Positions 9,240 to 52,088 of a DNA stretch of 64,000 nt are shown one piece after another. The first letter of the stretch is position 1; each line of letters starts with the position of its first letter. This DNA is from Candidatus Fermentibacterota bacterium (GTDB lineage: Bacteria > JAFGKV01), in NCBI GenBank assembly GCA_016928395.1, contig JAFGKV010000036.1, positions 1-64,000 on the forward strand. The letters run 5' to 3'. The notes beneath the pieces were generated by a model that saw only the letters and a list, made by a program, of their open reading frames with translations, had not been told where the DNA came from and ran no database searches. The position numbers were made by a program, and so were the translations under genes.

Positions 9240-11312
9240 TCACTCCGCCTCCGACGGGACTCCCTCCGCCGGATACTGGAACCGCCAACAGCAGTTCCAG
9301 CCGGGCGTAATCCACTGACCGCCACTCTCGATCGGAACGGATGATTCCGCAGTGATCTTGTACTGATCGCCTGGCATCCACCTGTCGTCGGTGTAAGAAG
9401 GCAGATTGCCCACTGAATCAATGGTCGCTATGCAGGTGCTCAAAGCGCCTCTCTTTCGATACACCTTGAACTGAGCGAACTCACCCCAATCGTCCCAACG
9501 AAAGTGGCGATCCTCCCAAATGCTGTCCGACCAAGCCAGCACCGCCACGGTGTCGCCCCTGATCACCTCCAGATGCGCCGCTGCGTGCCCCACCGGCGGA
9601 GGCTCGTAGTCGACCCAAGACTCATTGAAGTAGGGGTTGTCGAACGCCTGGTGCGTGGGGTCGTCTGATGCCTCGCGATCCATGAACTTCCGGAGGAAGT
9701 GACGCCCATCCCCAGTGACATCGAAGTACACGGAATCTGTGGTGATGACCTCGAAGTACAGGAACCCCAGATAGTGCGCCCGATACACATACGCCGTATC
9801 AAGGGCGGCCTGAATCCTCTCGTGAACGAGAGCCAACGTATCAGGATTGGAAATGTGCCTGAGGAACCCAGACTGGGTCGGGTCATACTGGAATGTCCCC
9901 CAGTCGTTCCCGAAGGAGGCAATCAGACTGATGATCCCATTGCAATTAACTGTCATGGAATCTAGCAGGGTGCACCCGCTGCCGTACCCATCTACCACAT
10001 AGACCCAATAGGGGGATCCCGTCGGTAGACACCCATTGGCAATACCATGCGAGAAGACCATCGCTTCAGGAACGCCTGCGGTCGATCTGCTGTCATTGCA
10101 TGACTCCTGAGCCCAGTTGATGAGTTTCGGCCGGAAACCGACCCCGGCAGAATCCATCTCCGTCCACGCAGAGAAGTAAAGGACATCGCTGTCGCTCCCG
10201 GCTGGGGGGTAGGGAGGAGCAACCCCCCCCGCCACGTACCCCGAGTCCCCTGGCGAAGGCTTGCACTTCGCGGGAAGGGTGTCGCCAGCCACAATGTAGA
10301 CAAGGCTGTCGCAGTACACCCAGCGATATCCGTATGGGGAGGTGCTATCAGGAATGGCGTACTCCTCGAACGCCCAGGCCAGCCGACCTTGCCAAAGCTC
10401 AGGATCCCAGTACCTCAGGTTCCAGGTGGTGAAGTCGGTGCCGAAGAGCTCATTGAACGTGACCTGTCGTCTCGGAAAGGCCTCTGCCGGGCTCGGATCA
10501 TCCGAAAACTGGGCTCCTCCAGGATACCCCAACCCCGCGAAGACCCCAGTGTCGGCATACGCGCCGCGGTGCGTCAGGTAGTCTCGAAACTCCTCCACCA
10601 TCGCGGGCTCATACCCGCCGAGCTTGCAGCTCTGGCCTGCCCAGTGAAAGCCAAAAATGGGTTCCTTTGGACCGTTCACAACGACCAAGTTGTCGTGTGC
10701 ACTGAGACACGTCATGATCGCCAGTGAAACCTCGTCATGGATTTCGCGAATCCGCTCTCGAAAGTTCACAGCCTCATCCCATGCGTACCTGGAAAAGGTA
10801 GGGAAATGCCTGTACGAGTGATAAGTGCTGTCCATATCGGCGATCGTACCGCCGTCCTGCATCCATTGACAAAGGACGGGGTTACTCCGGATTCGATCGC
10901 GGATCTCGGGATAGTCGACGCCCATGTAGGACACGTCACTGACCCCGGAGATCGCTCCGAAGGCTAGATCATATCCCTCAAGGCGAGTGGCGATGCTGTC
11001 GAGTTGACCGGGGCTCTGTTGCTCCTGGTGAAGGTCATGTATGACGTCGAAGCCCAGCCTGCAGTACAGCCGGTCCCGACCAAGTGTATCACGGAGAATC
11101 GTCGAGAGTGAATCCCAATCAGGTGGATACTCTGAGCCTTGGCCAAATAGAACGTACATCGTGTTGGTCTGGTCAGGCTCTGGTAGAAGTTCGTACGCGG
11201 AGACGCCCAGAGGCAACCACACGAGTATCACCAGAAGCCATCCGCACGAATAGGGCCGCGAGTGATGCACCAATCGGGGCAGCTGAGCTGCGGTCGTTTG
11301 AGAGCGAAACAC
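9240..11312 (-). CDS. Secreted glycoside-hydrolase-like protein (GH42/clan-A-like fold)
   Basis: 690 residues from a GTG at 11312, chosen because an AGGGGAT Shine-Dalgarno sequence precedes it and a signal peptide follows (hydrophobic GWLLVILVWLPLGVSA, cleavage before YELLPEP). The open frame extends to 11429. The sequence is alpha/beta with a stretch resembling clan-A glycosidases: MVEEFRDYLTHRGAY, then FNELFGTDFTTWN, like the FxxWLxxxYG...LNxxWGTxFxxW pattern of GH42-type enzymes. EPIF near residue 260 could supply an acid/base glutamate. The C-terminal 100 or so residues look like a fibronectin III-like domain. It is paralogous to the protein at 15885-18662 (shared LLPEP start after the signal peptide and shared hydrolase-like segment) but lacks that protein's sorting tail. 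Substrate unknown. Confidence 0.7.
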   Translation of the reverse strand: MFRSQTTAAQLPRLVHHSRPYSCGWLLVILVWLPLGVSAYELLPEPDQTNTMYVLFGQGSEYPPDWDSLSTILRDTLGRDRLYCRLGFDVIHDLHQEQQSPGQLDSIATRLEGYDLAFGAISGVSDVSYMGVDYPEIRDRIRSNPVLCQWMQDGGTIADMDSTYHSYRHFPTFSRYAWDEAVNFRERIREIHDEVSLAIMTCLSAHDNLVVVNGPKEPIFGFHWAGQSCKLGGYEPAMVEEFRDYLTHRGAYADTGVFAGLGYPGGAQFSDDPSPAEAFPRRQVTFNELFGTDFTTWNLRYWDPELWQGRLAWAFEEYAIPDSTSPYGYRWVYCDSLVYIVAGDTLPAKCKPSPGDSGYVAGGVAPPYPPAGSDSDVLYFSAWTEMDSAGVGFRPKLINWAQESCNDSRSTAGVPEAMVFSHGIANGCLPTGSPYWVYVVDGYGSGCTLLDSMTVNCNGIISLIASFGNDWGTFQYDPTQSGFLRHISNPDTLALVHERIQAALDTAYVYRAHYLGFLYFEVITTDSVYFDVTGDGRHFLRKFMDREASDDPTHQAFDNPYFNESWVDYEPPPVGHAAAHLEVIRGDTVAVLAWSDSIWEDRHFRWDDWGEFAQFKVYRKRGALSTCIATIDSVGNLPSYTDDRWMPGDQYKITAESSVPIESGGQWITPGWNCCWRFQYPAEGVPSEAE

Positions 11313-12056
11313 GTTGACATCCCCTGCAAGAGTGAAAACAACAGTGCTTCTGATGCATGCAGATTGGATGAGGAGGACAGAGCCATGGCCGCGTCCACCG
11401 CATCCCCCTTTCCCAGCACGCGCGCCCACGAGGCATCTGCTCCGCTCACCCCGAACGAGCCCATTAACCGCCTGGAGTCTTCAGATGTCAAGGGCGTTGC
11501 GCTGACTCCGCGGAAGACCCCGACCAGATGTCGCTGAACAGCTCCACGATCCCCGGTTCACGACGTGTGGGTTTGCGGGCACGGCGAGTCTCGAGGACGT
11601 GCCCGTGGGGCGAGTCAGGCTCGATGCCTGGACTGTCGACCTTGATGACTACTCAGTCCATCGCCTCGCCAATTCTCGCCCGTTCATCAATCGACCTGGT
11701 GCGCATTAACTCCCTATTCCCCTCGACAGTCGAATCCACCGACAAGGCGGCCGTTCAGAACTCAAGCGCGGGGCATCGTGGGGCGACTATTCTCATATTA
11801 GAATAGTGCGGGAATGACCATTCGCGACCCCTCCTGCGGGCACACGGCGAGGCTGCCTGCCCCAACTCCTGAACAGACCAAGAGCCAGGCCCACGGGAGG
11901 TAGGTGGGCGGCACTCGGTAGCTACGGTGGAGTTCGCGCCGGGTACCCCGTCGCCGTACAGGATTGCACAACAGAAACACTGTACTGGACAGAATCACGG
12001 GTTCTCCTCCATACTGTCGAGGATGAGGCGCCCCGAGACATCCATGGAGGTGATGG
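11313..12056. other. 744-bp intergenic region without a convincing gene
   Basis: This gap separates the divergently transcribed glycoside-hydrolase-like gene and the alpha/beta hydrolase. Short open frames exist, but none has a Shine-Dalgarno sequence, family motifs or plausible composition. The only structure seen is the inverted repeat at 11786-11807. Promoters for both flanking genes presumably lie here, but no clear -35/-10 pair was identified. Confidence 0.5.
11786..11807. promoter_or_regulatory. AT-rich 8-bp inverted repeat, operator or hairpin
   Basis: Arms ACTATTCT and AGAATAGT flank a 6-base spacer in an otherwise GC-rich intergenic region, 250 bases before the alpha/beta hydrolase start. 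The symmetry and AT-richness suit a dimeric repressor operator; a weak RNA hairpin is the alternative. No regulator gene is adjacent. Confidence 0.35.
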
Positions 12057-15884: not shown

Positions 15885-18662
15885 TTATCGAAGGATAACC
15901 ACTCTCCGATGCATGGTCAGACCTGGGGCTGAAGCGCGGGCCACGTACAGACCGCTTGGAACGGCGCCGTCTAGCTCGAGGCGGGCCTCGAAGACCCCGC
16001 TGTCGTGAGTGAAACCTCCGATGGTGTGCACGACGCGACCGGCAATATCCACCAACTCGAGAGTAACCGGGCATGCCGGGAGACCGAGACGCCACTTTAC
16101 CATGACCCGATTGGACGCCGGCTGAGGCGTAATCATAAGCGCACCTGGAAGCGCCGCTGCGTCGGCCGGAAGGGCCTCAATTTCCATCGAGACTGCGATG
16201 GACGTGACGGGCTGGAACGGGTCATTGGAGTATACAAGAAGATCTCCGTTGTACGTGCCGGAACCCATGTCGTCGCTTTCAAGGGCAATCGAAAGCCCGG
16301 CAACGTCGTTCGGAGCGATGGAGAGGGGGAACTCCGAGACGGACAGCCACGGACTGGGGGCCGCCACCGAGTCGATGTAGAGGGGCTTCAAGCCCGTGTT
16401 GGCCAGTAGCACTGTCGTGTCCAGTGCTGCATGTTGTTGCAGCGTAACATGGACGGAGTCCGGCGCGATGATCTGAGGTGCGACCCAGATGCGCGCAGGA
16501 TCGCTCATGTCGCCTCCGTTGTCCACCGCGACCACCGCATAGAAGATCGAGCCGGCGACAGGAAGTACGGAATCCACCACAGAGAACGATGGCACCATCA
16601 GCGTGGTCAGCACATTGAGAGCCGAGGGCTCAAACGCCGGCACGGTATCTCGGTGAACAACAAAACGGCCGTTGGAGAACTCCGGCCAGCCATAGGTATT
16701 CTGCAGGCCCGGCCACATGTCGTGCGCTTCGGTATCGTACCATAGGAGCCTCTCACATCCCCGGTAGATCGCAGGGTCAATCTCGAAGGAGACCATCTGG
16801 ACCCGGGCCTCGTAGTGCAGCCTCCCCAACCGAGGAGAAGGGGGCAGGTAATCCAGATCGTCGGTTAGGGATGCGTCCGGAGACCAGGGGCGGAAACGGA
16901 TGGCATTGTCGGAAACGAAGTCGTGGGTGGCCCGAAGCCTCGACTCCCACTCAATGGCAGGATCCCCCCCCTGCTCAGGAGGCCGGTGGAAGTCAGGGCG
17001 GATATTGGCCCACCAGGTCGGTGTTTCCGGCGGCACCCACCACCGGAATCCACACAGAAGATGCGCGCCCATCTCCCAGTTCATCCGATAGGCGGCAGAC
17101 CACAGGTCATAGTCTGAGGAATACTCCTCGCAGCAGCTGTGCTTCAGCGGATTGAACTCGAGGTTGGCCCACTGGCCGTCTTGAGCGAGCTCTCGGAGGG
17201 CCTCAAACAATCGCATGTTGACCGTAGTCTCCCGGAAGCCGGTAATCCCCGGACGGCCATTGGTCACCGCGCAGGCTGCCAGGGTACACAACCGGTGGCC
17301 GTAGCCCCAGTAGGGCACGTCCTCTGGGTTGAGTGCATCGTCCACAAATCCGCCAGGCACCTGATGGGTGAAAATCTGAGTCGGGCTCCATCCGGCTGGT
17401 CCGGCTACATCCCACAGAAGGTTCACCGAGTCCTCACATCGGTGCTGCACCATGATCTCGCCCCAACCTTGGACATGGCCGGATCCTTCGGGATTGACTG
17501 ACTGCCATTCCCCGTCGCCGTCACCTCCATCCACGTACATATCCCACACACCGGGACCAGCCTTGGGGCTCCGCGGGTCAACCTCGTCCCATGTTGAGAA
17601 GCTGGACCCTGTCGCCGCATTGAAATCGAACACGCTTGGATACCATGGATCGGCCCCCTGCCCCTCGAACGCCCCGCCCGGGCCATAGATTCCCGTATGC
17701 GCGAGCCACTGACGCCACTCCTCCATGGCGAGGGGAGAAAAATCCGCGTAGTGCGCGCAGTCGCCCTGATAGCAACGGACATGGTTCATGTCATTCTCGG
17801 GCTCGATGCTCACGGCGACCACCAGACCGGGATACAGGTCGTTGATGGCCAGCACATGCGCCATGGCCGCCTGCATGTTGCGGTTCCAGTACCCCATGAC
17901 AGAATCGGGATTGAGCCGCGAGAAGCCCAGCATTGTCCCCAAATTGGCGTTGCCCCAGTCTCCACCCTCGACATAGTCTCTAGGCTCATGGATGCCATCG
18001 AGGTTATCACCCAGGCTGATTCTGTCGTCGTCGTAGCGCTGCACAACCTCGGGGAACCCCTCGAGAAACGCGGTGAGGTTCCCGGGAACGGCCAGCGTAT
18101 CCTCCATCGACGTCCACACCTGCCGCACCAGGTTCCCGGAGTTCAAGAAGAGCATGCCCGGCACGCCGACTTGTGCCCATGACCTGATGATAGTGGTGTT
18201 GAAGTAGAGATCTGGCCCTCTGGGAATCTGCTCGTCTTCGACAGTTGCGGGACCCGTCTGCCCCAATCCCTCTAACCCTTGATACTCCCAGCCGTTCGAC
18301 GAGTTGACCGTTTCTGTGGGCCAGAGGCACTCGCCCACTCCCAGCCTCAGGTATGGGCCATCAGGCCCAACACGGGCGATCATGTCGTTCAGCTTCGCCA
18401 CCTGGAACGCGTAGGGGAGCGGCCCATGAGGCCAACCCTCATCGTAGGGCGTCTGTCCCGTCGGCGAACCCCGGTAGCCGTCGTTCATGAACAGATAGAA
18501 CGTATTCTCGTAGGAGGGCTCCGGCAGCACCTCCTTAGCGTGAACACACCAGACACCACCGGCAGAGAAGAGCAGAATCGCGCCCAGCTTGAGGCCTGTG
18601 CTAAAGAGCATGACGTTGCGCAGCGTTCGAATCCGGCAGTTCAGGTGCCGTGGCCTTACCAC
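15885..18662 (-). CDS. Secreted glycoside-hydrolase-like protein with C-terminal sorting domain
   Basis: 925 residues from GTG 18662, which overlaps the stop of the upstream lipoprotein gene and has GAGG 6 bases before it; ATG 18611 is the alternative. The signal peptide ends near CVHAKEVLPEP. The N-terminal two thirds looks like a clan-A glycosidase barrel: VAVSIEPENDMNHVR supplies a possible acid/base Glu. MEEWRQWLAHTGIYG and FNAATGSSFSTWDEVDP match the WLxxxYG...LNxxxGTxFxxWDEV region of GH42-like enzymes. A beta-sandwich region follows (about 690-830), then PQPASNRVMVKW ... VDIAGRVVHTI ... PSGLYVARA, ending in RRVVILR. That end is a FlgD-Ig/type IX secretion-like C-terminal domain. Substrate unknown, probably an extracellular glycan. 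Confidence 0.75.
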   Translation of the reverse strand: MVRPRHLNCRIRTLRNVMLFSTGLKLGAILLFSAGGVWCVHAKEVLPEPSYENTFYLFMNDGYRGSPTGQTPYDEGWPHGPLPYAFQVAKLNDMIARVGPDGPYLRLGVGECLWPTETVNSSNGWEYQGLEGLGQTGPATVEDEQIPRGPDLYFNTTIIRSWAQVGVPGMLFLNSGNLVRQVWTSMEDTLAVPGNLTAFLEGFPEVVQRYDDDRISLGDNLDGIHEPRDYVEGGDWGNANLGTMLGFSRLNPDSVMGYWNRNMQAAMAHVLAINDLYPGLVVAVSIEPENDMNHVRCYQGDCAHYADFSPLAMEEWRQWLAHTGIYGPGGAFEGQGADPWYPSVFDFNAATGSSFSTWDEVDPRSPKAGPGVWDMYVDGGDGDGEWQSVNPEGSGHVQGWGEIMVQHRCEDSVNLLWDVAGPAGWSPTQIFTHQVPGGFVDDALNPEDVPYWGYGHRLCTLAACAVTNGRPGITGFRETTVNMRLFEALRELAQDGQWANLEFNPLKHSCCEEYSSDYDLWSAAYRMNWEMGAHLLCGFRWWVPPETPTWWANIRPDFHRPPEQGGDPAIEWESRLRATHDFVSDNAIRFRPWSPDASLTDDLDYLPPSPRLGRLHYEARVQMVSFEIDPAIYRGCERLLWYDTEAHDMWPGLQNTYGWPEFSNGRFVVHRDTVPAFEPSALNVLTTLMVPSFSVVDSVLPVAGSIFYAVVAVDNGGDMSDPARIWVAPQIIAPDSVHVTLQQHAALDTTVLLANTGLKPLYIDSVAAPSPWLSVSEFPLSIAPNDVAGLSIALESDDMGSGTYNGDLLVYSNDPFQPVTSIAVSMEIEALPADAAALPGALMITPQPASNRVMVKWRLGLPACPVTLELVDIAGRVVHTIGGFTHDSGVFEARLELDGAVPSGLYVARASAPGLTMHRRVVILR

Positions 18663-19192
18663 GTCATACCTCGGATAACTGGGTCGGCCCACCCGGCGAA
18701 ATCCCAACCCGGATGATCAGAAGGGCCGGAATCGGTGGCAAGGAGCAGTGAGACTCGCTGACCCTCGTACAGGGAGAGGTCAACTTCGGCCTCAAGCCAG
18801 ACTCGGTCTTCATTCACCGCCTTGGGATTCACGTAACGGCTGAACGCAACGGTCGGATCGCTCGTGCCGTCGGCGATGCTGACGTGAAAGGTGACACCGT
18901 CGCCCGGCTTGTTCCAGACATCCTGGGGCATGCCCACTGCGAAACTGAGCTTGGCTTTGGCGGGCACAACCAGATCGAATCGGGCCGTGCTGACAGGATG
19001 CATGAAGATGCACTTCCTGGTGTCACCGCCGACATTGAGCACGGACTCCGAGACGAAGCTTGGCTGCTTGGCCGAGATCTTCGCCCGCGGCAGTTCGTCG
19101 ATAAGGGGAATGGTGATGACCTGCCGTTCCTTGGTGCAGGCCACCCCAAGCAGGGTGGCTGCAAGGGCTGAGATCACCGTGCATCGAATCAT
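18656..19192 (-). CDS. Lipoprotein with jelly-roll, sugar-binding-like domain
   Basis: 178 residues from ATG 19192, which follows GGAGGTG; an in-frame GTG at 19213 would place the Shine-Dalgarno sequence inside the gene. A short hydrophobic N-terminus ends in LLGVACTKE, a lipobox with the lipidated Cys at about residue 19. The mature part (LVVPAKAKLSFAVGM, a central DGVTFHVSI, VDLSLYEGQRVSLLL, then WADPVI) resembles a beta-sandwich module often found next to sulfatases and glycan-processing proteins. It contains no catalytic motif that I recognise. Its stop overlaps the start of the glycoside-hydrolase-like gene by 7 bases, so the two are almost certainly translationally coupled and may act together at the cell surface. 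Confidence 0.7.
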   Translation of the reverse strand: MIRCTVISALAATLLGVACTKERQVITIPLIDELPRAKISAKQPSFVSESVLNVGGDTRKCIFMHPVSTARFDLVVPAKAKLSFAVGMPQDVWNKPGDGVTFHVSIADGTSDPTVAFSRYVNPKAVNEDRVWLEAEVDLSLYEGQRVSLLLATDSGPSDHPGWDFAGWADPVIRGMTW

Positions 19193-41239: not shown

Positions 41240-41325
41240 TGGTGCCGGGAGCGGGGATCGAACCCGCATGGGCTAAGCCCGCGGGATTTTAAGTCCCGTG
41301 CGTCTGCCAGTTTCGCCATCCCGGC
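41240..41325 (-). tRNA. tRNA-Leu, anticodon UAA
   Basis: On the minus strand the sequence begins GCCGGGATGGCGAAACTGG, the 5' acceptor stem and D-arm. The anticodon stem GGGAC/ATCCC flanks loop CTTAAAA with anticodon TAA, and a long variable arm identifies a class II tRNA. The T-arm GCGGGTTCGATCCCCGC and acceptor CTCCCGGCA close the cloverleaf. Position 41243 is the discriminator A, and CCA (41240-41242) is encoded. It is downstream of and co-oriented with aroB. Confidence 0.97.
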
Positions 41326-41432: not shown

Positions 41433-42527
41433 TCACCCTCCCGCAAACAGGCTCTGAAAGGCCTCACGCACCGCATCAGCGGGAGGGTCGCGTACCACCC
41501 GGCACGAGCCCCGCCCGGTGGGTACAACCACGACCCAGCCCCCATGGGTGTGCTTCTTGTCGCTTTGCCATGCGGAGAAAAGATCGGGCGGCGGCGCTTC
41601 CACCCACGCTGAGAGGCCGAACTTCCGTACCACATCCACCACCGCCCGCTCCAGCGAGGGGTCGCACAGTCCCAGGCGAATACCCAGTCGCGTGGCCGCC
41701 ACCAACCCAAGTCCGACCGCGACGCCGTGCGTAGCGCATATCCCCTCACCCTCCAAGACATGGGCAAAGGTATGGCCGAGGTTGAGAAGGTGGCGCACAC
41801 CCTCGTCCCGTTCGTCAAAGGCCACACACCGAGCCTTGATGTCAACACATCGCCCGACAATAAGAGACACGTGGGGGCAAGAATACGCGAGGGGCCCCTC
41901 CATGGCGCCGAGTATCTCCCAAAGGTACGGGTCAAACCCCAGTGCATATTTCACGACCTCGGCCATGCCGCACGCCAGCTCCGCCGCCGGCAGATGCCGC
42001 AACCAACCCATATCTGCAACGACCGCTCTGGGCTGGTGGAATGCACCGACCTGGTTCTTCAGGCCGTGGATATTGACGCCCACCTTGCCGCCGATGGAAG
42101 AGTCCACCTGCGCCAGAAGGGTTGTGGGAAGCACCACCCAGGGTGTTCCCCGATGCCACGTGGCCGCAGCGAATCCTGTCAGATCACTGATCGTCCCACC
42201 GCCTGCAGCGAGAATCACCCCGTCCCGCCGAATACCGGCCCGCCCACAGGCGTCATACACACCCGACAGGGCCTCGAGCTGTTTCAGCGATTCTCCACCA
42301 GGAATCGAATCGACCGAGAGACGGGACCCGAAACATCCTCCTATCTCCTCTTCAATTGCGCCCCGCACCTCTGGCGGCAAATGAGCATCCATGACCAGTA
42401 GCGCATTGCCCCTGCATCGCGCGAGGCAAGGGATGCGGTGCGACCACCCCGGCGCAAGGTGCCCGAGCATGACCTGGTAGGTCTCAAACGGGTGGCGGCG
42501 AACCACCACACTACGTTCGAAAGGCAT
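41433..42527 (-). CDS. aroB: 3-dehydroquinate synthase
   Basis: 364 residues from ATG 42527 (the frame is open to 42677). GGESLKQLE, ILAAGGGTISDLTGFAAATWHRG (NAD-binding loop), PTTLLAQVDSSIGGKVGVN, GMAEVVKYAL and HLLNLGHTFAHVLE (metal ligands) are all present in family order, and the length agrees with the usual 350-370. The enzyme cyclises DAHP to 3-dehydroquinate in the shikimate pathway. The start lies 1 base after the stop of the tandem-NYN-like gene, so translation is probably coupled. No other shikimate gene is in the window. Confidence 0.95.
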   Translation of the reverse strand: MPFERSVVVRRHPFETYQVMLGHLAPGWSHRIPCLARCRGNALLVMDAHLPPEVRGAIEEEIGGCFGSRLSVDSIPGGESLKQLEALSGVYDACGRAGIRRDGVILAAGGGTISDLTGFAAATWHRGTPWVVLPTTLLAQVDSSIGGKVGVNIHGLKNQVGAFHQPRAVVADMGWLRHLPAAELACGMAEVVKYALGFDPYLWEILGAMEGPLAYSCPHVSLIVGRCVDIKARCVAFDERDEGVRHLLNLGHTFAHVLEGEGICATHGVAVGLGLVAATRLGIRLGLCDPSLERAVVDVVRKFGLSAWVEAPPPDLFSAWQSDKKHTHGGWVVVVPTGRGSCRVVRDPPADAVREAFQSLFAGG

Positions 42528-42528
42528 G

Positions 42529-44634
42529 TTAGGGCCGTCGCCGATCCCGGGAGCGCTTTCCTCGGCTCCCACGGTTCGCCTCGCTACCAAACCTCCCCCT
42601 GCCCGGGCGGGATGCGGTATGCTCATGGGCCCGCACCACGGCGGGGTCATCCATCGAAAGGGTGTAGCTGAGACCATTGCTCGTCACGATCTGAGGTTCC
42701 TTGCGAAGCATCCGGTCCTTCAGTAGCATGGTCAAGAGCTCCCCCGCTTCGTCGTCGCGTACCCGCAACGACTCGACGAAGGCACTGCGGATGCGCGCTT
42801 CTCCGATGGGTTGACCCATGGGCGCCATGTGTTTGAGCATAGCCACGGCTTTATTCTTCCGGGCCACCACCAACCGAACGAACTTGGACTGGTGATTGAG
42901 GGCCAGACTCCCGGGACTCCCCTTGGATGCCTGGAGATCACCGGACCGGGCGGCCTCCCGCACTGCAGCATCAATCAGAGCTCCGCCGTATTCGGCCAGT
43001 GATTTGCGCACTGCACCCAGAGGCGCTACGGGCTTTCCATGTCGAACCGCGTAGTTATCCACCGCGACGATCAGATGCTCCCGCAGTCGGGGAGGCACCC
43101 TGACGGGAGTCGGTTTCTGCGGTCGTGGGTGACCCCGTTCCTGCCCACGCGAAGGCGCCGGAACCTCCACTCCCCTGAGCGGTGAGGGGGAAAACGCCAG
43201 GCACGCCAAGGGCTGACCGTCTTCTCCCGATGCTCCTTTGAACCGAACCAAAAGACCTTCGTCGACCAAGAAATTCAACCACGCCTGCAAGGTTCGCCGA
43301 TCCTGGGGTAACTCCTCCGTGGACGTGCATCGTGATACAAGACCGTCAACCACGAGAGACACAGGCACACCGGTCCCCTCACCCGGGCCATCGCCCAGCA
43401 GCTCCAGAAGCGCCTTGATGATGTCCCGCATCAATGCGAGACCACGATCCCCCTCATTGATGCGGTAGCGTTTCCCACCACGGCTTTCGTCTCCCGTTTC
43501 CAGGAGCGTCCCCCGTGATGCGGCCGCACGGACGAGAGCGAAGGCCTGATCCGCACGCCTGACGAATGTAGCGTCGCTGACCAATGCCGCCACCAAGTCT
43601 CCTTCGCCGATGCTGTCACCCCCCCGTTCGGCCACCACTCGGTCAGTAAACAGCCCGATTCGCGACCAAAGCCCCGGCATCCTCTCACTGCCCACCGAGG
43701 AGGACACACGCGCCATCGGCTTCGACAGCTCGGCACCGATGGGATGCCAGGCAACCCATGCGGGTAGATCCGGCTGGGCATCGCACCAGAGATGAATGTG
43801 GCCGGCGTGCGGCTCCAATAACCGCGCCAGTTGTGCTACAACCTCCGTACGCCCCACCACGACGAGCTCGCTCACTGGGCTCATACGTTCCATGGCCTTG
43901 GCTACCTCATCGGGAAGCGTAGTCCCGGGAACGATCGGCGGCACCAAGGGTGTGCTGTAACCGGCCTTGTGAAAGAGCGTCTCAGCCTCATGGGTGATCG
44001 GCTCCCCAGCCTTGTTGCGCATGACCGGCAAGGTATGCCAATCGGCCAGAGCCGTGCGCCACGTCACCTGGCCCAGATGGCACAAGGCAGCCTCCAGCCT
44101 CTCGATTAGCGAGTCCACGTCAACCGATGTCTGCACGGTCCACGAGGATGCGACCAGGCCCTGCACATCAACCACCACCGCCACCCCGCCCTCACTGAGG
44201 CCCAGGACCCTCGTCAGGGAATCCACCCGATGCCAGCCAGCTACTTTGTCTGACTGCGGCTTCGCCAGCCACAGCACGACCTCGGAGGCATCCTGCCGGA
44301 GATCACTGGCACGACCCGCCAATGCTCTATCCGCCGACACCATGACGACCGTGAGATCCTCGGCCATGGCACGATCCCGCGCCAGTTGGGCCTTCATGGC
44401 ACGCCACCCTGCAGTGGAGGTGAGCGGTTCGCCACATTGCCATCCTTCGGTCTCGAAGGAATCGCGGACCGAGGCGGGATGGTTCGTCCATTCCGCGTGG
44501 CACCACGTCGCCCCCCTGTGTCCAAGTACGGAAGCCGCCGAGACGATGCGTTGCGCGAACAGAGAAGGCGTAAGGCCCTGGTCCAGGATATCGTGGATCG
44601 TGTCGTAGTCAACGAGGAGCGAAATTCTCTTCAT
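42529..44634 (-). CDS. Tandem NYN (PIN-like)-domain protein with C-terminal winged-helix regions (novel architecture)
   Basis: 701 residues, ATG 44634 with GGGAG upstream. The first 140 residues fit an NYN/PIN-like ribonuclease fold: ISLLVDYDTIHDIL (acidic D9, D11), TVVMVSADRALAGRASDLRQ and VVLWLAKP. A second similar unit spans about 155-310: GGVAVVVDVQGLVASS, WRTALADWHTLPVMRN and SELVVVGRTEVVAQLARLLEPHAG, but the acidic residue of the SxD motif is replaced (VGRTE), so it looks degenerate. From about 345 to 590 there are several winged-helix-like stretches (LVAALVSDATFVRRADQAFALVRAAASRGTL is one; AVRKSLAEYGGALIDAAVREAARSG another), separated by a Pro/Arg linker near 505-530. The C-terminal tail is Arg/Gly-rich. 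A role in RNA processing, and an RNA-binding tail, are inference from fold and composition. Confidence 0.6.
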   Translation of the reverse strand: MKRISLLVDYDTIHDILDQGLTPSLFAQRIVSAASVLGHRGATWCHAEWTNHPASVRDSFETEGWQCGEPLTSTAGWRAMKAQLARDRAMAEDLTVVMVSADRALAGRASDLRQDASEVVLWLAKPQSDKVAGWHRVDSLTRVLGLSEGGVAVVVDVQGLVASSWTVQTSVDVDSLIERLEAALCHLGQVTWRTALADWHTLPVMRNKAGEPITHEAETLFHKAGYSTPLVPPIVPGTTLPDEVAKAMERMSPVSELVVVGRTEVVAQLARLLEPHAGHIHLWCDAQPDLPAWVAWHPIGAELSKPMARVSSSVGSERMPGLWSRIGLFTDRVVAERGGDSIGEGDLVAALVSDATFVRRADQAFALVRAAASRGTLLETGDESRGGKRYRINEGDRGLALMRDIIKALLELLGDGPGEGTGVPVSLVVDGLVSRCTSTEELPQDRRTLQAWLNFLVDEGLLVRFKGASGEDGQPLACLAFSPSPLRGVEVPAPSRGQERGHPRPQKPTPVRVPPRLREHLIVAVDNYAVRHGKPVAPLGAVRKSLAEYGGALIDAAVREAARSGDLQASKGSPGSLALNHQSKFVRLVVARKNKAVAMLKHMAPMGQPIGEARIRSAFVESLRVRDDEAGELLTMLLKDRMLRKEPQIVTSNGLSYTLSMDDPAVVRAHEHTASRPGRGRFGSEANRGSRGKRSRDRRRP

Positions 44635-44780
44635 ACTCTACTCCCATGTGGCCAAACCGGGGTCGAATGCGGCGGATCTCTTGTCGCACGCCGCAGTCGA
44701 CCGTTCCGCATGGGTGGCCGCTGACACCTGGGCCCACCCGATGCTGCCCCCGAACAGACATAGTGAATTGCAGTACAAGC

Positions 44781-45533
44781 TCATCCCTTTCCACCCTCGA
44801 TGAAGTCTTCGCGTGGATACGCCAGCCGATCCATGGCATCGGCCAGCCGGCAGAGATCCAGTCCGGTTGCACGACACGGCTGCTCCCCCCGGATGTTCGG
44901 CAAGACCAGCACACAGGGAACCCTGCCGCCGAGGCTCATCATCCCATTCAACAGATCACGCTGACACGCGACTGCCAGCAGCCCATCCGGTTCCGTGGAG
45001 GTCACCACATGCAGTGCCTCCGTGCCACCCTTGACCACATGCCACTGGCAGCGGTAGCGATTCAGCAGTTTCTCGATGCGTTCCTGCACGCGGGCTTCGA
45101 GGCAGTGCGGGAGCAACACCAGGAGAGTGCGAGGCCTGCGTTCCTGCAGCCAGGCCAGCGTCAGCCCATTCTGTACGGTGAGAAATGCGCACCCGAGCGC
45201 ATCATCGCTCCAGCCGATGAGCCGAGCTCCCGTTCTGGCCAGGCGGAACACCCCGCAGGTCATGACACGGACCAACCCGATTGGCAGAGGAAGCAACCGT
45301 CGCTCGGTCAAGCCCGATATCAGGGCGAGAACTGCGCACATTGAGACCACACTGCCAACCACGCACGGCCCTACGACCGTCACACCGTCGCGTTGGATGC
45401 CCAAAATGGAGAGGGCCAGGACGGCGATCCCGCCCAGTGCTGCTCCCAGCGCGATCGCCGTCACACACCACAGCAGAATGAACCACACGCGGAACCCTTC
45501 CTGCCTGCCGTCCGCGGGAAGGCAGGGGTTCAC
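44781..45533 (-). CDS. Membrane protein with DUF116-like domain
   Basis: 250 residues from GTG 45533 (AAGGAGG upstream). Two hydrophobic helices (about 16-38 and 52-76) precede a soluble domain. LLVLLPHCLEARVQ, GLLAVACQRDLLNGM and CVLVLPNIRGEQPC match the PHCxQ, VACxxxL and following blocks of DUF116 proteins. The usual CGxC pair of that family is not present (YRCQWH stands in its place), so an Fe-S function, if it exists elsewhere in the family, may be lost. Its stop is 146 bases before the tandem-NYN-like gene. ftcD is 15 bases upstream in the same orientation, so it is probably co-transcribed with ftcD. Confidence 0.75.
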   Translation of the reverse strand: MNPCLPADGRQEGFRVWFILLWCVTAIALGAALGGIAVLALSILGIQRDGVTVVGPCVVGSVVSMCAVLALISGLTERRLLPLPIGLVRVMTCGVFRLARTGARLIGWSDDALGCAFLTVQNGLTLAWLQERRPRTLLVLLPHCLEARVQERIEKLLNRYRCQWHVVKGGTEALHVVTSTEPDGLLAVACQRDLLNGMMSLGGRVPCVLVLPNIRGEQPCRATGLDLCRLADAMDRLAYPREDFIEGGKG

Positions 45534-45548
45534 AGGGCCTCCTTGATA

Positions 45549-47225
45549 TCAACCCCCCAGGCGGCGATCCACGGCCTCGCTGAGCCGCCCGATTCTGTCT
45601 CTGACCAACGCAATGGAGTCCTTGGCCCGTTGCAGCGTGGCCGCGGCCCACTCCTTGTCTGTCAGGCCGGGGAGATTGATCAAAACGTTCAGGTAGGCTC
45701 CTTCGGCCCCTGCGGCCGCCATGAGGCCTCCCACCGCCGCATCCGACAGGCTGTTGGGATTCCCCTTCTCCGCCATCTCCGCGGCCAGTTCCAATGTTGT
45801 GAGGGATTTCTCAAGCACTCTCAAGGGGACCAGGGTCGCTCCCTTGGTCGCCTCCTCCACGGCCTGCGCCTTCATCACCCGTTCAGTCTCGTCCTTGGGC
45901 TTTCCCCGTCCAGCCTCCAGCACTCTGTTGAACGCCTTGGTATCCTCATCCAGGTCCACCAGCAGAGCATCCTTCAGAGCCTGCGCGTGGGTACCCAGCC
46001 TTTCCATCTCGGCCATGTGGTCTTCATACCCCTTCTTCGAGGCGGTCAGCGCACCCACCATGGCAACGAGAGCCGCGGCAAGGCTGGAAGCCAGGGCGGC
46101 AACGGTCCCCCCACCGGGCGCCGGGGAGTCAACGGAAACCTCGTCCACGAAGTCAGCCACTGACAGCGAGGCCAGGCATTTCTCCCGGGGAGCGATCAGG
46201 TACTCGATGATCCGGTCTTTTGGCGTGAAAGGCGTAATCTCGGAAAGGCCGAGACTCCGCAGGGCCACATGCACCAATTCCCGTTCCGGCACCCCGGTCG
46301 TCTTTCCCTGGCGATTCAAATAGAACTCTCCGGCCGTCAGGATGGCCTCCCTGGGAATCAGGCCGACCAGCTCGCTGCCGGTGACCCGGAGCCCCAATTC
46401 AGACGCCTGGCGGCAGACCTCCTCGAATGCAGCATGAACGGGCGTAACCGTGTAGTCCAGCAGATTCATCGAGATCTGAGCGCACCCATACTCCTCGATG
46501 TACCAGCCTACGGCCCGCACCGCCTTCAAAGTCCCGGGGGTCCGCACAGCTTCCCCGCGCTCATCTCGCAGGATGGCACCCGATGTATCCTTCTTCACGG
46601 TGCCGGTCTCGCGGATCCTGAAGGCAATACGGTTTGCCAGACGTTTGTCCCGCGTGTTCAGGTTGACATTATAGGCGATGAGAAACTGTCGCGCCCCGAT
46701 GGCCGTAGCGCCGGACTTGGCATTGAATCGCGCAGGGCCGAAATCCGGCTTCCACACCGGATCACGCAGCTTCTCAGCCAAGCCTTCGTACTCACCTTTT
46801 CGTATATCAGCCAAGCTCCTGCGCGCCTCCGCCGTCGCGGCGTGCTCATACAGGTAGACAGGTATGCCCAGCTCCGATCCCACGCGATTCCCCAGACTTC
46901 GGGCGATCTCGACGCACTCTTCCATGGTCATGTCCGATACCGGGACAAACGGGCACACGTCGGTGGCTCCCATCCGCGGATGCTCTCCGGAATGGGTCGA
47001 CATGTCGATCAGTTCAGCCGCTCTACGAATGGCCCGGAAGGCCGCCTCCTCCACGGCATCGGGCGGACCTACGAAAGTCACCACAGTTCGGTTGGTAGCA
47101 GCCCCAGGATCGACATTGAGGAGGCTGACGCCGGCAATGCCGGCGATCTGGTCTGTAATGCTTGCTATTACCTCTCTGTTCTGACCTTCACTGAAGTTCG
47201 GTACGCATTCCACGAGCTTCGCCAT
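45549..47225 (-). CDS. ftcD: Glutamate formiminotransferase / formimidoyltetrahydrofolate cyclodeaminase fusion
   Basis: 558 residues from ATG 47225 (GAGGAGG upstream). The N-terminal formiminotransferase domain begins LVECVPNFSEGQN, with HSGEHPRMGATDVCPFVP and GIPVYLYEHAA. The cyclodeaminase domain starts about 350 with SLSVADFVDEVS, APGGGTVAALASSLAAALVAMV and runs to the end. The full length is like the bifunctional vertebrate/bacterial FTCD (about 541). It transfers the formimino group from formiminoglutamate to tetrahydrofolate and deaminates it to methenyl-THF, linking histidine (or purine) breakdown to one-carbon pools. No hut genes are near. Confidence 0.95.
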   Translation of the reverse strand: MAKLVECVPNFSEGQNREVIASITDQIAGIAGVSLLNVDPGAATNRTVVTFVGPPDAVEEAAFRAIRRAAELIDMSTHSGEHPRMGATDVCPFVPVSDMTMEECVEIARSLGNRVGSELGIPVYLYEHAATAEARRSLADIRKGEYEGLAEKLRDPVWKPDFGPARFNAKSGATAIGARQFLIAYNVNLNTRDKRLANRIAFRIRETGTVKKDTSGAILRDERGEAVRTPGTLKAVRAVGWYIEEYGCAQISMNLLDYTVTPVHAAFEEVCRQASELGLRVTGSELVGLIPREAILTAGEFYLNRQGKTTGVPERELVHVALRSLGLSEITPFTPKDRIIEYLIAPREKCLASLSVADFVDEVSVDSPAPGGGTVAALASSLAAALVAMVGALTASKKGYEDHMAEMERLGTHAQALKDALLVDLDEDTKAFNRVLEAGRGKPKDETERVMKAQAVEEATKGATLVPLRVLEKSLTTLELAAEMAEKGNPNSLSDAAVGGLMAAAGAEGAYLNVLINLPGLTDKEWAAATLQRAKDSIALVRDRIGRLSEAVDRRLGG

Positions 47226-47390
47226 GCAGAAATCCTCCTCAGGCTTGTCTGCCCACGATGGTTTCATGAGGTCTGGGCAACGATGCAGTCAGGTACACGC
47301 TGTGTCCCGTAATGGTGCAACGCACACACATTGCCATGCCCGACACCCCTCGACAACGGGGACGTGCCCCGGAGACACAGGGTACGCGGG

Positions 47391-47768
47391 CTACGGATCC
47401 GTGCCGCGCAGAAGTGTCTTCGCCGCCTGCCTCAACCGTCTCGGTGTGACCGGTTTCGCCAGTATCCGATCCACGCCCATCTCGCGGATGCTGCCTGCTT
47501 CGGCGCTCTCCGGGTATCCCGTGACCACGAGAAGGGGTGTACTGCTGAGGCGTTCGGTGTTTCGGATCATCCGGCACAACTGCGGGCCGGACATGCACGG
47601 AAGGCGGACATCCAGCACCACCAAATCGGGCGTGATCTCTTCCAGCAATCGCTGGGCAGACACGCCGTCGAACGCGACACGAGTCTCATACTCGTCGCTC
47701 AAGGCGGCCTCAAGAAACGACGCCACGTCAGGATCGTCTTCTACAATGAGCACCAGCGCTCTACTCAT
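47391..47768 (-). CDS. Single-domain response regulator (CheY-like receiver)
   Basis: 125 residues from ATG 47768 after GGAGG; the open frame begins far upstream. LVLIVEDDPDVA has the acidic pair D11/D12, LVVLDVRLP carries the phosphoacceptor Asp (D53), VVTGYP the conserved Thr and LAKPVTP the conserved Lys. There is no output domain, so it likely works through protein contact. The partner kinase is not in the window. It lies 26 bases downstream of the last GT-C-like gene and is possibly co-transcribed. Confidence 0.9.
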   Translation of the reverse strand: MSRALVLIVEDDPDVASFLEAALSDEYETRVAFDGVSAQRLLEEITPDLVVLDVRLPCMSGPQLCRMIRNTERLSSTPLLVVTGYPESAEAGSIREMGVDRILAKPVTPRRLRQAAKTLLRGTDP

Positions 47769-47794
47769 GGGTTCCTCCGCCATGAACCCCATGG

Positions 47795-49117
47795 TCAATC
47801 GTCCGCAGGTGACAAGATACGGGCCGCGGAGTCCGGGGACAACTCCCGACGCATACGCCAGGCAGCGATCAATACCCCCCATGAGAAACCCACGGCCAGC
47901 GCCAGCGCCACAGCCTGTCCAATCCCCCCTGCACCCAGCACCGTCCCGCGGAATCGGCCGGCCAGTATCCGGGGGACGACGAAGTGTGCCAAAGGAAATG
48001 CGACATCCTCGGGCATCTCCGGCTCCGTGGCGGTGAATCCTATCTGGGCAACCCACGACATGGCGGCCAATACCAGAAGAAGACGGCGCCAGCGCCCGCC
48101 CAGTGTACCCACCGCCCATGCCATCAGCGGGAGCACTATGATGGCATGACGCACGGTGCAGCTTGCGCCGCCCCACCACGCGGGAAACCCGGAAAGAAGC
48201 ACAAGGTAGAAAACGGGAACCGCAACCGTCATGATCAGCTCATGCCGCGACCGCAACTTCAGCGCAGCCACAGGCCAGAGCAAGAGCCAGGGACTCAGGA
48301 GAAAGAGGCCGCGATAGGTCCCGAACAACATGGGCACCAAGGTCCGGAGGGCTGGTGCGCCTATGCCTCGATACCCGTGGGACATCGCCTCGGCAAAGCC
48401 CTCATCCGCCAAGTTCTCGTACCCCGTGGCCAGGGGGGTGCCGAAGGATGCCAGATTGTAGCCTGCCACCAGGGCCGCGCCGGGAAGCATGCCGAAGACG
48501 AGCCGCACCGCACCCCGCCGGTCCTCCAGGGCTACTAGCACCACCACTCCGACAATCCCCAGAGCCGTAAGATAGTCTATGGCGCAACCCAATCCCGCGA
48601 CAACTCCTGCCCAGAGGTGGCGCTTCTCTCTGGCCAGCATCCACGCGGCCATGAGACACAAGGCGGAGGGAACATGGCCATAGAACAGCGTCGCGTAGGG
48701 AAGCACCGGGCTTGCGACGCAGCAGGCAGCCGCGGTCAGAGCAGCCGACGGGGTGTGAGCCATGCAAAGAAGCACGGCCAGCATCGCGGCGGGCACTGAC
48801 ACCAGAATGACCCGGACAAGAAGACGTTTCGCAGCGTCGCCGGTAGGATCCCCCGGCGCTACGATACGATCCCCGAGCCACACCACAGGGGCACCCAAAA
48901 TACCCATACCCGGGGCCTTAGCAGCGTAGAGACGCCCCCCGGATACGCTAACATCCCTGCTCTCGCCTATGAATTCATCCACCGCGGTGGTACCGCGACG
49001 AGCCAGGGCCAGACTCAGAGCCCACCTGCTTTGCCCGTTCCACCCCTCAGAAAAGGTGAAGAACAAGGAATACACCACAAGAAGCCCGCACCCCATCAGA
49101 ATGCATTGCGCCTTCAT
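47795..49117 (-). CDS. GT-C-like polytopic membrane protein
   Basis: 440 residues with about 10-11 membrane helices. The start overlaps the stop of the preceding gene (ATGA). After the first helix, the loop has RRGTTAVDEFIGESRDVSVSGGRLYAAKAPGMGILGAP: an acidic-rich exposed loop followed by small-residue stretch, as in GT-C enzymes that use polyprenyl-phosphate sugars (PMT/ArnT kind; the usual PPLY is KAPG here). AEFG-type motifs are absent, so the class assignment is by topology. It belongs to the contiguous island down to the response regulator. Confidence 0.65.
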   Translation of the reverse strand: MKAQCILMGCGLLVVYSLFFTFSEGWNGQSRWALSLALARRGTTAVDEFIGESRDVSVSGGRLYAAKAPGMGILGAPVVWLGDRIVAPGDPTGDAAKRLLVRVILVSVPAAMLAVLLCMAHTPSAALTAAACCVASPVLPYATLFYGHVPSALCLMAAWMLAREKRHLWAGVVAGLGCAIDYLTALGIVGVVVLVALEDRRGAVRLVFGMLPGAALVAGYNLASFGTPLATGYENLADEGFAEAMSHGYRGIGAPALRTLVPMLFGTYRGLFLLSPWLLLWPVAALKLRSRHELIMTVAVPVFYLVLLSGFPAWWGGASCTVRHAIIVLPLMAWAVGTLGGRWRRLLLVLAAMSWVAQIGFTATEPEMPEDVAFPLAHFVVPRILAGRFRGTVLGAGGIGQAVALALAVGFSWGVLIAAWRMRRELSPDSAARILSPADD

Positions 49118-50607
49118 CGCGCCTCCCAGAGATCATAGCTTCCGATGGAGAATGGCCCCCGGTACTCCCGCCGAAGCACCGAGGCAAATTCGGTGAACTC
49201 CCTCATCTGCCCGTACGAGTCCATCGCCTCCACCGGGTTGACATCTCCGTGCACGATTACCACACACCCGGGGCGCTTCCTGATGAACTCCTGGATGAAG
49301 CGTGCCCGATGGCCTTTCTGCACCGAGACTTCGCGGGGCGAAGTCGTCGGGAACGTCAGGGGAAAATCGGCAACATAGCGCATGGGATTGGGGGTGCGGG
49401 AAAGATAGTTCAGACCCGGCTCAAACCCCCATACCAGAGCCGTGCCGCACCCTCTCCCGATGATTTCATCGGCCGCGCGCCTCTGTTCCGCAGCAGAGAA
49501 ATCTGCGCCAGACGCCTTGTCGCCGAATCCGGCAAGGTAGATGTCGGACGAGATAGCCCCACCCAGGTAACGGATCCCGCGCCACGCTTCGTACGCCGCC
49601 GGGTACCAGGCGGCAGAGAGCAGCCCGGGCGAGGCAAGCCATGGGCCGATTGCCATGAAGAGCACGATCACGCGAAGCACCGATCCCATGGCGCGCAGTT
49701 CGCCGACTCCCCGGCCGAACAACGCCATAAGCGGCGCCAGCACGATAATCCAATGGTAGGTGAAGAGCTTACCCTGCAGAATCACCGCACCCAAAGCACA
49801 CAGCAGCCACAGTCCCATGAAGCCCTTGCGCCGCACCACGGCGCTACCCGCAATGACGACTGCGGGCCACAGGGGCGCACCCCATCGCGCCACGCCGCGC
49901 ACCACCCTGCCCGCCAATTCCGCCTTCCACGTGCTGGCACCATACCCGGCATTGAAGATCACCAAGTCTTCCCAGACCCTCAGGAGGCCGCCACTAACCG
50001 CGTACAACCCCAACCACAGGGTAAGGGGAATGGCTGCTCCCAACGCAACACCCCCCACGCACCGGCATGTGTCCGCACGCCCGAGACCGCTCCTCCACGC
50101 CAGAATCGGCGCGAAGAGCAGGGCAACGGGCTTGGAAAGAATGGCTGACCCCAGCAGCACGCCTCTGAGCAGCGCCCTCGGGGTGCGCAGGCCCGCGGCG
50201 ATGAAGAGGTTCACGAGGTGCTCCGCCTGCCCTATGTCCCAGAAACGATGGAGGAGAGGGCACACGACCCCATAGCCAACGCCCGCCCACAGACCCCCTC
50301 GCCGTGTGCCCAGGTGGGACAGCAGCACCGATGTCACGCCGATGAGCACGCCGTTCCACGCCGCCCGGGGCACCACTGCCACACCTTCCATGAGCATGTA
50401 CCACCAGAACACTCCAGGGAACGTATTGGTCCAGAAATCGCGATGGGGCAGCTCACCGTGGAGCATCCGCCAGCCCCCGTAAGAGAAGTATCCCTGGTCG
50501 CGACCCACGGGCATCGCCCAGAACGGGACCGACAGCACGACCGGCAACAGGAGGAGTAGCCCATCCCGAGCCAGCCTCGAATCTAGAATCCCCCGACCGC
50601 GCGTCAC
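49114..50607 (-). CDS. GT-C-like polytopic membrane glycosyltransferase
   Basis: 497 residues from GTG 50607, which overlaps the upstream stop (GTGA); the frame is open to 50808, but that part lies inside the neighbour. About 10 transmembrane helices. The first outer loop reads MPVGRDQGYFSYGGWRMLHGELPHRDFWTNTFPG: Asp-Gln-Gly-Tyr and the aromatic PG are the type of motifs at the active loop of PMT-like enzymes. The C-terminal 130 residues form a soluble domain with VIVHGDVNP. Sugar donor and acceptor unknown. Confidence 0.7.
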   Translation of the reverse strand: MTRGRGILDSRLARDGLLLLLPVVLSVPFWAMPVGRDQGYFSYGGWRMLHGELPHRDFWTNTFPGVFWWYMLMEGVAVVPRAAWNGVLIGVTSVLLSHLGTRRGGLWAGVGYGVVCPLLHRFWDIGQAEHLVNLFIAAGLRTPRALLRGVLLGSAILSKPVALLFAPILAWRSGLGRADTCRCVGGVALGAAIPLTLWLGLYAVSGGLLRVWEDLVIFNAGYGASTWKAELAGRVVRGVARWGAPLWPAVVIAGSAVVRRKGFMGLWLLCALGAVILQGKLFTYHWIIVLAPLMALFGRGVGELRAMGSVLRVIVLFMAIGPWLASPGLLSAAWYPAAYEAWRGIRYLGGAISSDIYLAGFGDKASGADFSAAEQRRAADEIIGRGCGTALVWGFEPGLNYLSRTPNPMRYVADFPLTFPTTSPREVSVQKGHRARFIQEFIRKRPGCVVIVHGDVNPVEAMDSYGQMREFTEFASVLRREYRGPFSIGSYDLWEAR

Positions 50608-52088
50608 CACGGCATCGCTCCGGGACCATCTTCGTCCAAGGATGACCTCTCCAGCACGGCCAGCTCGGTGGACCCCGAACCCGAGACCCGTCGTGTAATC
50701 CTGGTATAGGTCACTCCCTTCATGAGCCAGCCCTTGAACTGGATGGTGGCCCGATACGGGGAGTAGATGAGATGAATCCGTCCGCCGGGAGGCACCCGTG
50801 CCCAGCATTCACTGGCCAAGAGTCGCGCCTCGTCCTCGCTGGCCCAGCGCCTGTCATAATGCGCATAGTCCACGCGATCCACCGTGCCGAAGCTGGGCGG
50901 AACCAGAACGGGGAGATTCCCTCGGTAGTAATAATGCAGCACAGGCGCTTCGATTTCGGGCGCCACCACCACCACGTCGTGTGCCTGCTGATTCTCCTCG
51001 ATGAGGGCAGCCAGTTCCCTCAGTGACCCCTTTTCATAGGCGGTGAAGTAGTAGAAGACGCCAACGGCGCAACCAGCCATCAGCAGGGCGGAACTTGCCC
51101 ACCGGATAGCCCTTCCGGCGCGACGCCACCCCGCGGCCAGCACCAGCAGGAAGGAGGGCAGCACCACGATGTCGTACCGCCCCGGCACCAGAGCCGGTAC
51201 CATCCGAGACACGATCCATGCCAAGGCCAGGGTGCCTCCGCACAAGGTGGCCAGCATCCTGCCCATCGAATCGCGCAGACCATGCATCAGTAGGGGAAGT
51301 GCACCCAGCACCACCGTCGCCAAGCCCATGGGGATGCCCAGGATGCACGAGTGCTCGGCAGCATCGATTCCGGCGAGCCACAGGCCGATGCTGCGCAGCG
51401 GCGCATCCAGGGACGGCGGCGGAAGCCAGGTGCCCGTGCGAAACACGAACACCTGCCTCCAAAGAAGCACTGCCGCCGGCAGCCACCCCACCGCTACTAC
51501 CAGAGCAAATGCCAGCAGCCTGCGCCAGGGCACCGTGCGTGCCGCCCCGATGATGCACCATGATACGGCGATGGCGAAGGAGGAAAAGTGGTGGGTCCAC
51601 AGGAGGAGGATCTGCACGGCGGCCAAGGCAGCCAGCCCCCGGCCTTCGCGCCGTGATCTGATGGTGAGGCATGCCAGTGCCACTCCCAGGAGACACACCA
51701 AGGCATACATCCGCGCTTCCTGGCTATGCCACAGATGCAACGGCGACACCGCCAGCAAGGCGCCCGCAACGACGCCGGGAGGCCCCATCAACCATGCCCC
51801 GCACAGGCCCAGCAGTGGAGGCGTCAATAGCCCGAAGGCCGCGGACAATGCTCTCGTGCGGGCCTCGCCCGGATCATCCCCCGCAACACTGCCAAGCAAC
51901 CAGTAGTACAGGGGAGGAGAGCAGTCATGCTCCAGGGCATGCCAGGCCGCCGCAGGCTTCAGGCGGGCAATGGCCAGGCAGTTGGCCTCATCCGTCCACA
52001 ATGGCTGGGAGCCCAACCCCGGCATCCGGATGATGGCGGACGCCACGAAAATGCCCGCCAGGGCCCCGGCTACGTACCGACGATCCAT
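50604..52088 (-). CDS. GT-C (PMT-like) membrane glycosyltransferase
   Basis: 494 residues with about 11 membrane helices. The N-terminal loop PLWTDEANCLAIARLKPAAAWHALEHDCSPPLYYWLLGS has the D-E pair and the SPPLYY motif of dolichyl/polyprenyl-phosphate-dependent GT-39/83 enzymes, and LHLWHSQEARMYAL is also typical. A soluble C-terminal portion starts about 385. The start overlaps the 3' end of the upstream gene by 19 bases. Confidence 0.8.
   Translation of the reverse strand: MDRRYVAGALAGIFVASAIIRMPGLGSQPLWTDEANCLAIARLKPAAAWHALEHDCSPPLYYWLLGSVAGDDPGEARTRALSAAFGLLTPPLLGLCGAWLMGPPGVVAGALLAVSPLHLWHSQEARMYALVCLLGVALACLTIRSRREGRGLAALAAVQILLLWTHHFSSFAIAVSWCIIGAARTVPWRRLLAFALVVAVGWLPAAVLLWRQVFVFRTGTWLPPPSLDAPLRSIGLWLAGIDAAEHSCILGIPMGLATVVLGALPLLMHGLRDSMGRMLATLCGGTLALAWIVSRMVPALVPGRYDIVVLPSFLLVLAAGWRRAGRAIRWASSALLMAGCAVGVFYYFTAYEKGSLRELAALIEENQQAHDVVVVAPEIEAPVLHYYYRGNLPVLVPPSFGTVDRVDYAHYDRRWASEDEARLLASECWARVPPGGRIHLIYSPYRATIQFKGWLMKGVTYTRITRRVSGSGSTELAVLERSSLDEDGPGAMPW

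Follow-up and report, generated by a model that had tools for sequence, protein, structure and literature searches.

The window, meaning the whole stretch of 64,000 nucleotides analysed here, carries directly upstream of aroB a long reading frame whose product, P0001, was described in a first-pass annotation as a tandem NYN-like ribonuclease with one degenerate domain and several winged-helix regions, matching no known family. The locus thus raises the question of whether this reading frame is a genuine gene, whether its N-terminal half has the fold of a NYN nuclease, and whether the protein cuts nucleic acid or binds it.

A conserved gene coupled to aroB

The gene and its immediate neighbours are as follows:

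41433..42527, minus strand: aroB (3-dehydroquinate synthase; Pfam PF01761 and PF24621), beginning one base past the P0001 stop codon
42529..44634, minus strand: tandem pseudo-NYN / winged-helix protein gene (P0001), 701 aa, defined by its open reading frame, translation and homologues
44781..45533, minus strand: DUF116 gene (PF01976), a conserved upstream neighbour found in the same order in L001 and L005

The 701-codon reading frame is confirmed on the minus strand, a detail absent from the first-pass annotation, and a GGGAG stretch lies upstream of its ATG. The one-base gap claimed between this gene and the next is borne out by the junction TAA-C-ATG (stop, one base, aroB start), and Pfam identifies the downstream product as 3-dehydroquinate synthase. 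Close coupling of P0001 to aroB is kept in the homologues: the two genes overlap by one base (TGATG) in L001 and by four bases in G002, provided that the TTG start of the latter is right. Between the window and L001, differences by codon position amount to 0.29/0.21/0.61, falling mostly on third positions, and dN/dS is about 0.16, with dS saturated; this pattern marks P0001 as a conserved gene, and it is real and under purifying selection.

The family has three members, namely the P0001 of the window and intact homologues in both of the other genomes examined for the phylum (L001:6001-8121, with 60% identity, and L004:1501-3675 of G002, with 39% identity), the phylum sample being three genomes including the window's own. 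Beyond the phylum, no homologue was found in approximately 860 genome entries across Bacteria, drawn from overlapping samples; because only some of the candidates in the profile search were scored, distant members may have been missed. Searches of viral contigs, phages and plasmids likewise found none. A weak genome match in L007 was rejected, being located in an unrelated reading frame rich in CxxCH motifs, and those in L008 and L009 are not relatives, being short and low-scoring, with stops inside. As judged from these searches, the protein is lineage-restricted, having been seen so far in one small lineage.

All three phylum genomes share the gene order of two membrane proteins, a receiver-like protein, FtcD, DUF116, P0001 and aroB. 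In the window, this seven-gene block of identical order spans 41433-50808 on the minus strand, and it is kept despite the lack of any evident functional connection between FtcD and aroB. FtcD neighbourhoods in 20 other genomes, searched with blastp and hmmsearch, held no DUF116, P0001-like or aroB-like neighbour. A tRNA-Leu(TAA) gene lies directly 3' of aroB (window 41240-41325, minus strand), and likewise in L001 (9298-9383); it was not found in L005 of G002. Elsewhere, the window encodes a protein of 1190 aa that combines guanylate/adenylate cyclase, AAA ATPase and TPR domains (2509-6081), as well as two long minus-strand reading frames that lack any Pfam match (9240-11429, 729 aa, and 15885-18707, 940 aa), which may be reading-frame artefacts or uncharacterised proteins.

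Fold of the N-terminal units

The P0001 protein has no significant match in Pfam, NCBIfam, PADLOC or PHROGs, and the NYN family PF01936 matches none of the three homologues at E values up to 10, nor any protein of the three phylum genomes. The window's genome yields 25 PIN-domain (PF01850) matches and no Pfam-detectable NYN or OST-HTH protein. A phmmer match of residues 182-271 to HisF, involving engineered or TIM-barrel chains, disappeared with a three-sequence profile and was set aside as chance, as were weak matches to PADLOC HamA, a PHROG and Bestrophin (E 0.06-0.17). Taken with profile-profile comparison and structure prediction followed by Foldseek, the family libraries agree with the first-pass annotation that no known family accounts for the chain. 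Two regions of its N-terminal half nevertheless resemble NYN domains:

44263..44634, minus strand: NYN-like unit 1, residues about 1-124, with beta-alpha-beta order in the AF2 model
43726..44184, minus strand: NYN-like unit 2, residues about 151-303, identified by profile comparison, AF2 model and Foldseek match to 2qip

Compared by hhalign with a template of 29 NYN domains from other bacteria, residues 1-150 scored P=2e-4 (probability 46%) and residues 148-312 scored P=9e-6 (probability 83%), and in neither case did any of 40 column-shuffled control templates score as well. PIN, receiver and LOTUS profiles fell far below the NYN profile for both units; the VapC-type PIN (PF01850) profile gave P values of 0.2 and 0.5 with a control set of 26 rows, at least one of which had been taken from the wrong strand. 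When the units were forced onto NYN profiles with hmmalign, no usable full alignment resulted. The ADW motif seen in bacterial NYN proteins is present in unit 2, and the IDF/VDY start, as well as the LVSGNNDF stretch of the G002 homologue, agree with NYN anatomy. Similarity between the two units themselves is not significant (P=0.12), so that a recent internal duplication is not supported.

Structure prediction, another check proposed in the first-pass annotation, gave models of low to moderate confidence that show two beta-alpha-beta, NYN/PIN-like units. The full AlphaFold model, built from three sequences (pLDDT 58, pTM 0.30), places these ahead of four modules of H-H-H-beta-beta order, and its top PDB match in Foldseek is the NYN domain of MARF1 (5yaa, 6fdl; E=1.6e-5, prob 1.00), a match that the search output does not assign to either unit. 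Unit 2 is better modelled alone (pLDDT 69, pTM 0.69), and in this form it weakly matches the NYN protein VPA0982 (2qip; E=3.9e-3, prob 0.99, TM 0.49 both ways), and also ExoIX, which belongs to the related 5'->3' nuclease superfamily. The only additions from a viral Foldseek search were some NYN proteins of viruses, at E values of about 1e-3 to 5e-3.

These models leave room for a reading in which the N-terminal units are Rossmann-like domains of another kind, whose match to NYN reflects generic beta-alpha-beta features. The lack of any Pfam match to NYN up to E=10, the low confidence of the full model and the presence of unrelated Rossmann folds (thioredoxin reductase, Rex, Sir2) among the top Foldseek rows of unit 2 would all fit such a reading; however, profile scores are specific to NYN when set against receiver and PIN profiles and shuffled templates, the motifs named above follow NYN anatomy, and a MARF1 NYN domain heads the PDB match list, so that we consider it very unlikely. 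Profile comparison and predicted structure thus support NYN/PIN-like similarity in both units, in keeping with the original proposal of two such units in one chain.

Catalytic positions

NYN nucleases employ three aspartates, which are D358/D426/D452 in MARF1 (PMC6294520, PMC11346440), D14/D92/D115 in VPA0982 and D13/D118/D143 in the CRISPR-associated NYN protein of B. fragilis (PMC11346440). The positions of P0001 that bear on this triad are the following:

44608..44610, minus strand: D9, counterpart of the first catalytic Asp, unit 1; invariant in the three homologues
44407..44409, minus strand: G76, second-Asp position of unit 1 by ungapped spacing; invariant in the alignment columns and placed by the NYN alignment
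44329..44331, minus strand: D102 of the SxD motif, unit 1; Asn in both relatives
44167..44169, minus strand: D156, counterpart of the first catalytic Asp, unit 2; invariant
43849..43851, minus strand: R262 in place of the third catalytic Asp (SGD to VGR), unit 2; Arg in L001, Asp in G002

Among NYN proteins of the ADW type, the second Asp mostly stands 25-26 residues ahead of the third. At this spacing unit 1 has residue 76, the invariant Gly, which the model puts close to the N-terminal end of a helix, and no homologue carries an acid at residues 76-79. A gapped path, which hhalign prefers, instead brings the acid of the ARDRAM motif (D/D/E in the three homologues) under the second catalytic Asp; this acid would fall at the far end of the helix that begins near residue 76. 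Unit 1 keeps only the first catalytic Asp in all homologues and appears to lack the second, its residue 102 being D/N/N. In unit 2, the second position is uncertainly assigned to D242 (D/E/D), and the third, residue 262, is R/R/D; the G002 protein keeps VGD at this point together with acids upstream, and its unit 2 may therefore be catalytic.

On alignment evidence, a complete three-Asp set appears in neither unit across the homologues, and these residue patterns indicate that in neither unit has a nuclease site been conserved throughout the family, a statement for which the existing three sequences offer few comparisons. The loss of the SxD aspartate from unit 2, as originally described, is seen in the VGR of the window. 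The accompanying view that a single domain is degenerate holds for unit 2 and fails for unit 1, which is degenerate too, as seen in its invariant G76 and in the Asn of both relatives at D102; the related idea of a competent unit 1 nuclease with a degenerate unit 2 partner finds no support in this incomplete triad.

These same positions bear on the possibility that P0001 is an active metal-dependent endoribonuclease, in which unit 1 (through D9, D11 and D102) or a site shared between the units would cut RNA delivered by the winged helices, along the lines of the first-pass annotation. Such activity would be in line with the NYN fold support, the invariance of D9 and D156, the D102 of the window, the acid supplied at the second position by the gapped alignment and the VGD of G002, yet neither unit has a triad that is complete and consistent in position throughout the three homologues, unit 1 has exchanged its SxD aspartate for Asn in both relatives, and unit 2 of the window has Arg at the third position. 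In addition, mutating D426 and D427 together costs MARF1 most of its activity, and SMG5, where these residues are missing, shows none (PMC6294520). We therefore regard an active endoribonuclease as unlikely; the incomplete triads suggest that P0001 is probably non-catalytic.

Winged-helix-like modules and a candidate binding function

The C-terminal half of the protein is divided as follows:

43450..43674, minus strand: winged-helix-like module 1, residues 321-395; H-H-H-beta-beta in the AF2 model, no family match
43189..43449, minus strand: winged-helix-like module 2, residues 396-482; AF2 model
42889..43098, minus strand: winged-helix-like module 3, residues 513-582; AF2 model, tentative fold; 43% invariant, net charge +3
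42649..42888, minus strand: winged-helix-like module 4, residues 583-662; AF2 model; 41% invariant, net charge +5
42532..42648, minus strand: Arg/Gly-rich basic tail, residues 663-701; net charge +8 (+6 and +7 in the homologues)

The predicted model and the residue charges agree with the winged-helix-like modules and basic Arg/Gly tail of the first-pass annotation. In the full AF2 model, modules 1, 2 and 4 lie mostly at pLDDT 50-78; module 3 is poorly modelled, and its fold is tentative because most of it lies below pLDDT 50. Modules 3-4 have the highest share of invariant residues (41-43%, versus 28-30% in the NYN units), and they and the tail are basic, whereas the NYN units are acidic. This pattern of conservation and charge fits nucleic-acid binding as the function kept by the C-terminal half. 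A relation to LOTUS domains, which had also been suggested, was not recovered: at E<=1, PF12872 (OST-HTH) found nothing in the three genomes, in a test that is weak because the control genomes themselves matched only below the cut-off, and comparison of the winged helices with bacterial OST-HTH regions by hhalign gave P values of 0.014 to 0.2, with a probability of at most 3%.

The full model also resembles, in Foldseek rows below MARF1, the tandem winged-helix folds of RPC62 and TFIIIC and those of MarR-family regulators such as ZitR. Along with the basic character and high conservation of modules 3-4, this resemblance would suit a DNA-binding transcription regulator, whose winged helices would form the DNA-binding array and whose N-terminal units would serve, without catalysis, for dimerisation or sensing. 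Since RNA and DNA are both bound by winged-helix folds, however, the resemblance does not discriminate between them, and NYN units and Arg/Gly tails, whose usual setting is in RNA-binding proteins, point towards RNA. Proteins that combine NYN with OST-HTH have been described (PMC2848206). A role as a DNA-binding regulator thus appears improbable, and RNA is the most likely ligand of P0001.

Among known systems, the closest are the bacterial NYN / DUF88 ('LK-nuclease') proteins with OST-HTH domains (PF01936 and PF12872; PMC2848206), with which P0001 shares a NYN-type fold, an ADW-type motif and, as predicted, subsequent winged-helix-like modules, and with which its unit 2 aligns over most of its length. 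It differs from this group in its pair of NYN units where the group has one (of 30 NYN reading frames retrieved, none carries two significant NYN domains), as well as in its incomplete Asp set, its lack of demonstrable OST-HTH similarity and its invisibility to Pfam. MARF1 / Limkain b1, composed of NYN, RRMs and eight LOTUS domains (PMC6294520), resembles the predicted plan of P0001 in its N-terminal NYN domain followed by a winged-helix array, and its NYN domain is the best PDB fold match; it is, however, a eukaryotic, active RNase with D358/D426/D427/D452, and no RRM was found in P0001. Unit 2 resembles VPA0982 in its model, and P0001 departs from both VPA0982 and the B. fragilis protein, with three Asp each, in that its set is incomplete in each unit. 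A further parallel is offered by the SMG5-type inactive PIN domain, a nuclease fold that has lost catalytic acids and shows no RNase activity (PMC6294520), although SMG5 is eukaryotic and the likeness drawn is one of fold type and lost acids.

The apparent loss of parts of the active site in both units, together with the probable binding modules, makes an RNA- or DNA-binding regulator likelier than an RNA-cutting enzyme. We give about an even chance to P0001 being a pseudo-NYN protein that binds nucleic acid, is confined to this lineage and represents a variant on the NYN plus winged-helix plan. It would probably have been built from that plan as two tandem NYN-like units, four modules and a basic tail, with the NYN-like pair having shed parts of its catalytic triad; modules 3-4 and the Arg/Gly tail would bind nucleic acid, and the pair could serve, without catalysis, as an acidic scaffold or a surface for partner docking. 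Nucleic-acid binding, the preference for RNA over DNA, the absence of catalysis and any regulatory role are all traits that we infer. More tentatively, the catalysis-free NYN tandem, four winged helices and basic tail could constitute an undescribed architecture, that of an RNA-binding regulator in a conserved aroB operon and of a bacterial pseudo-NYN adaptor family.

Most of what is known of NYN proteins concerns active RNases. If the proposal is true, a tandem, non-catalytic bacterial NYN pair would represent the reuse of this fold for binding or scaffolding, in parallel with the inactive PIN domains of eukaryotic RNA decay, and it would reveal a NYN-like family that is invisible to current domain libraries, in genomes otherwise devoid of a Pfam-detectable NYN protein.
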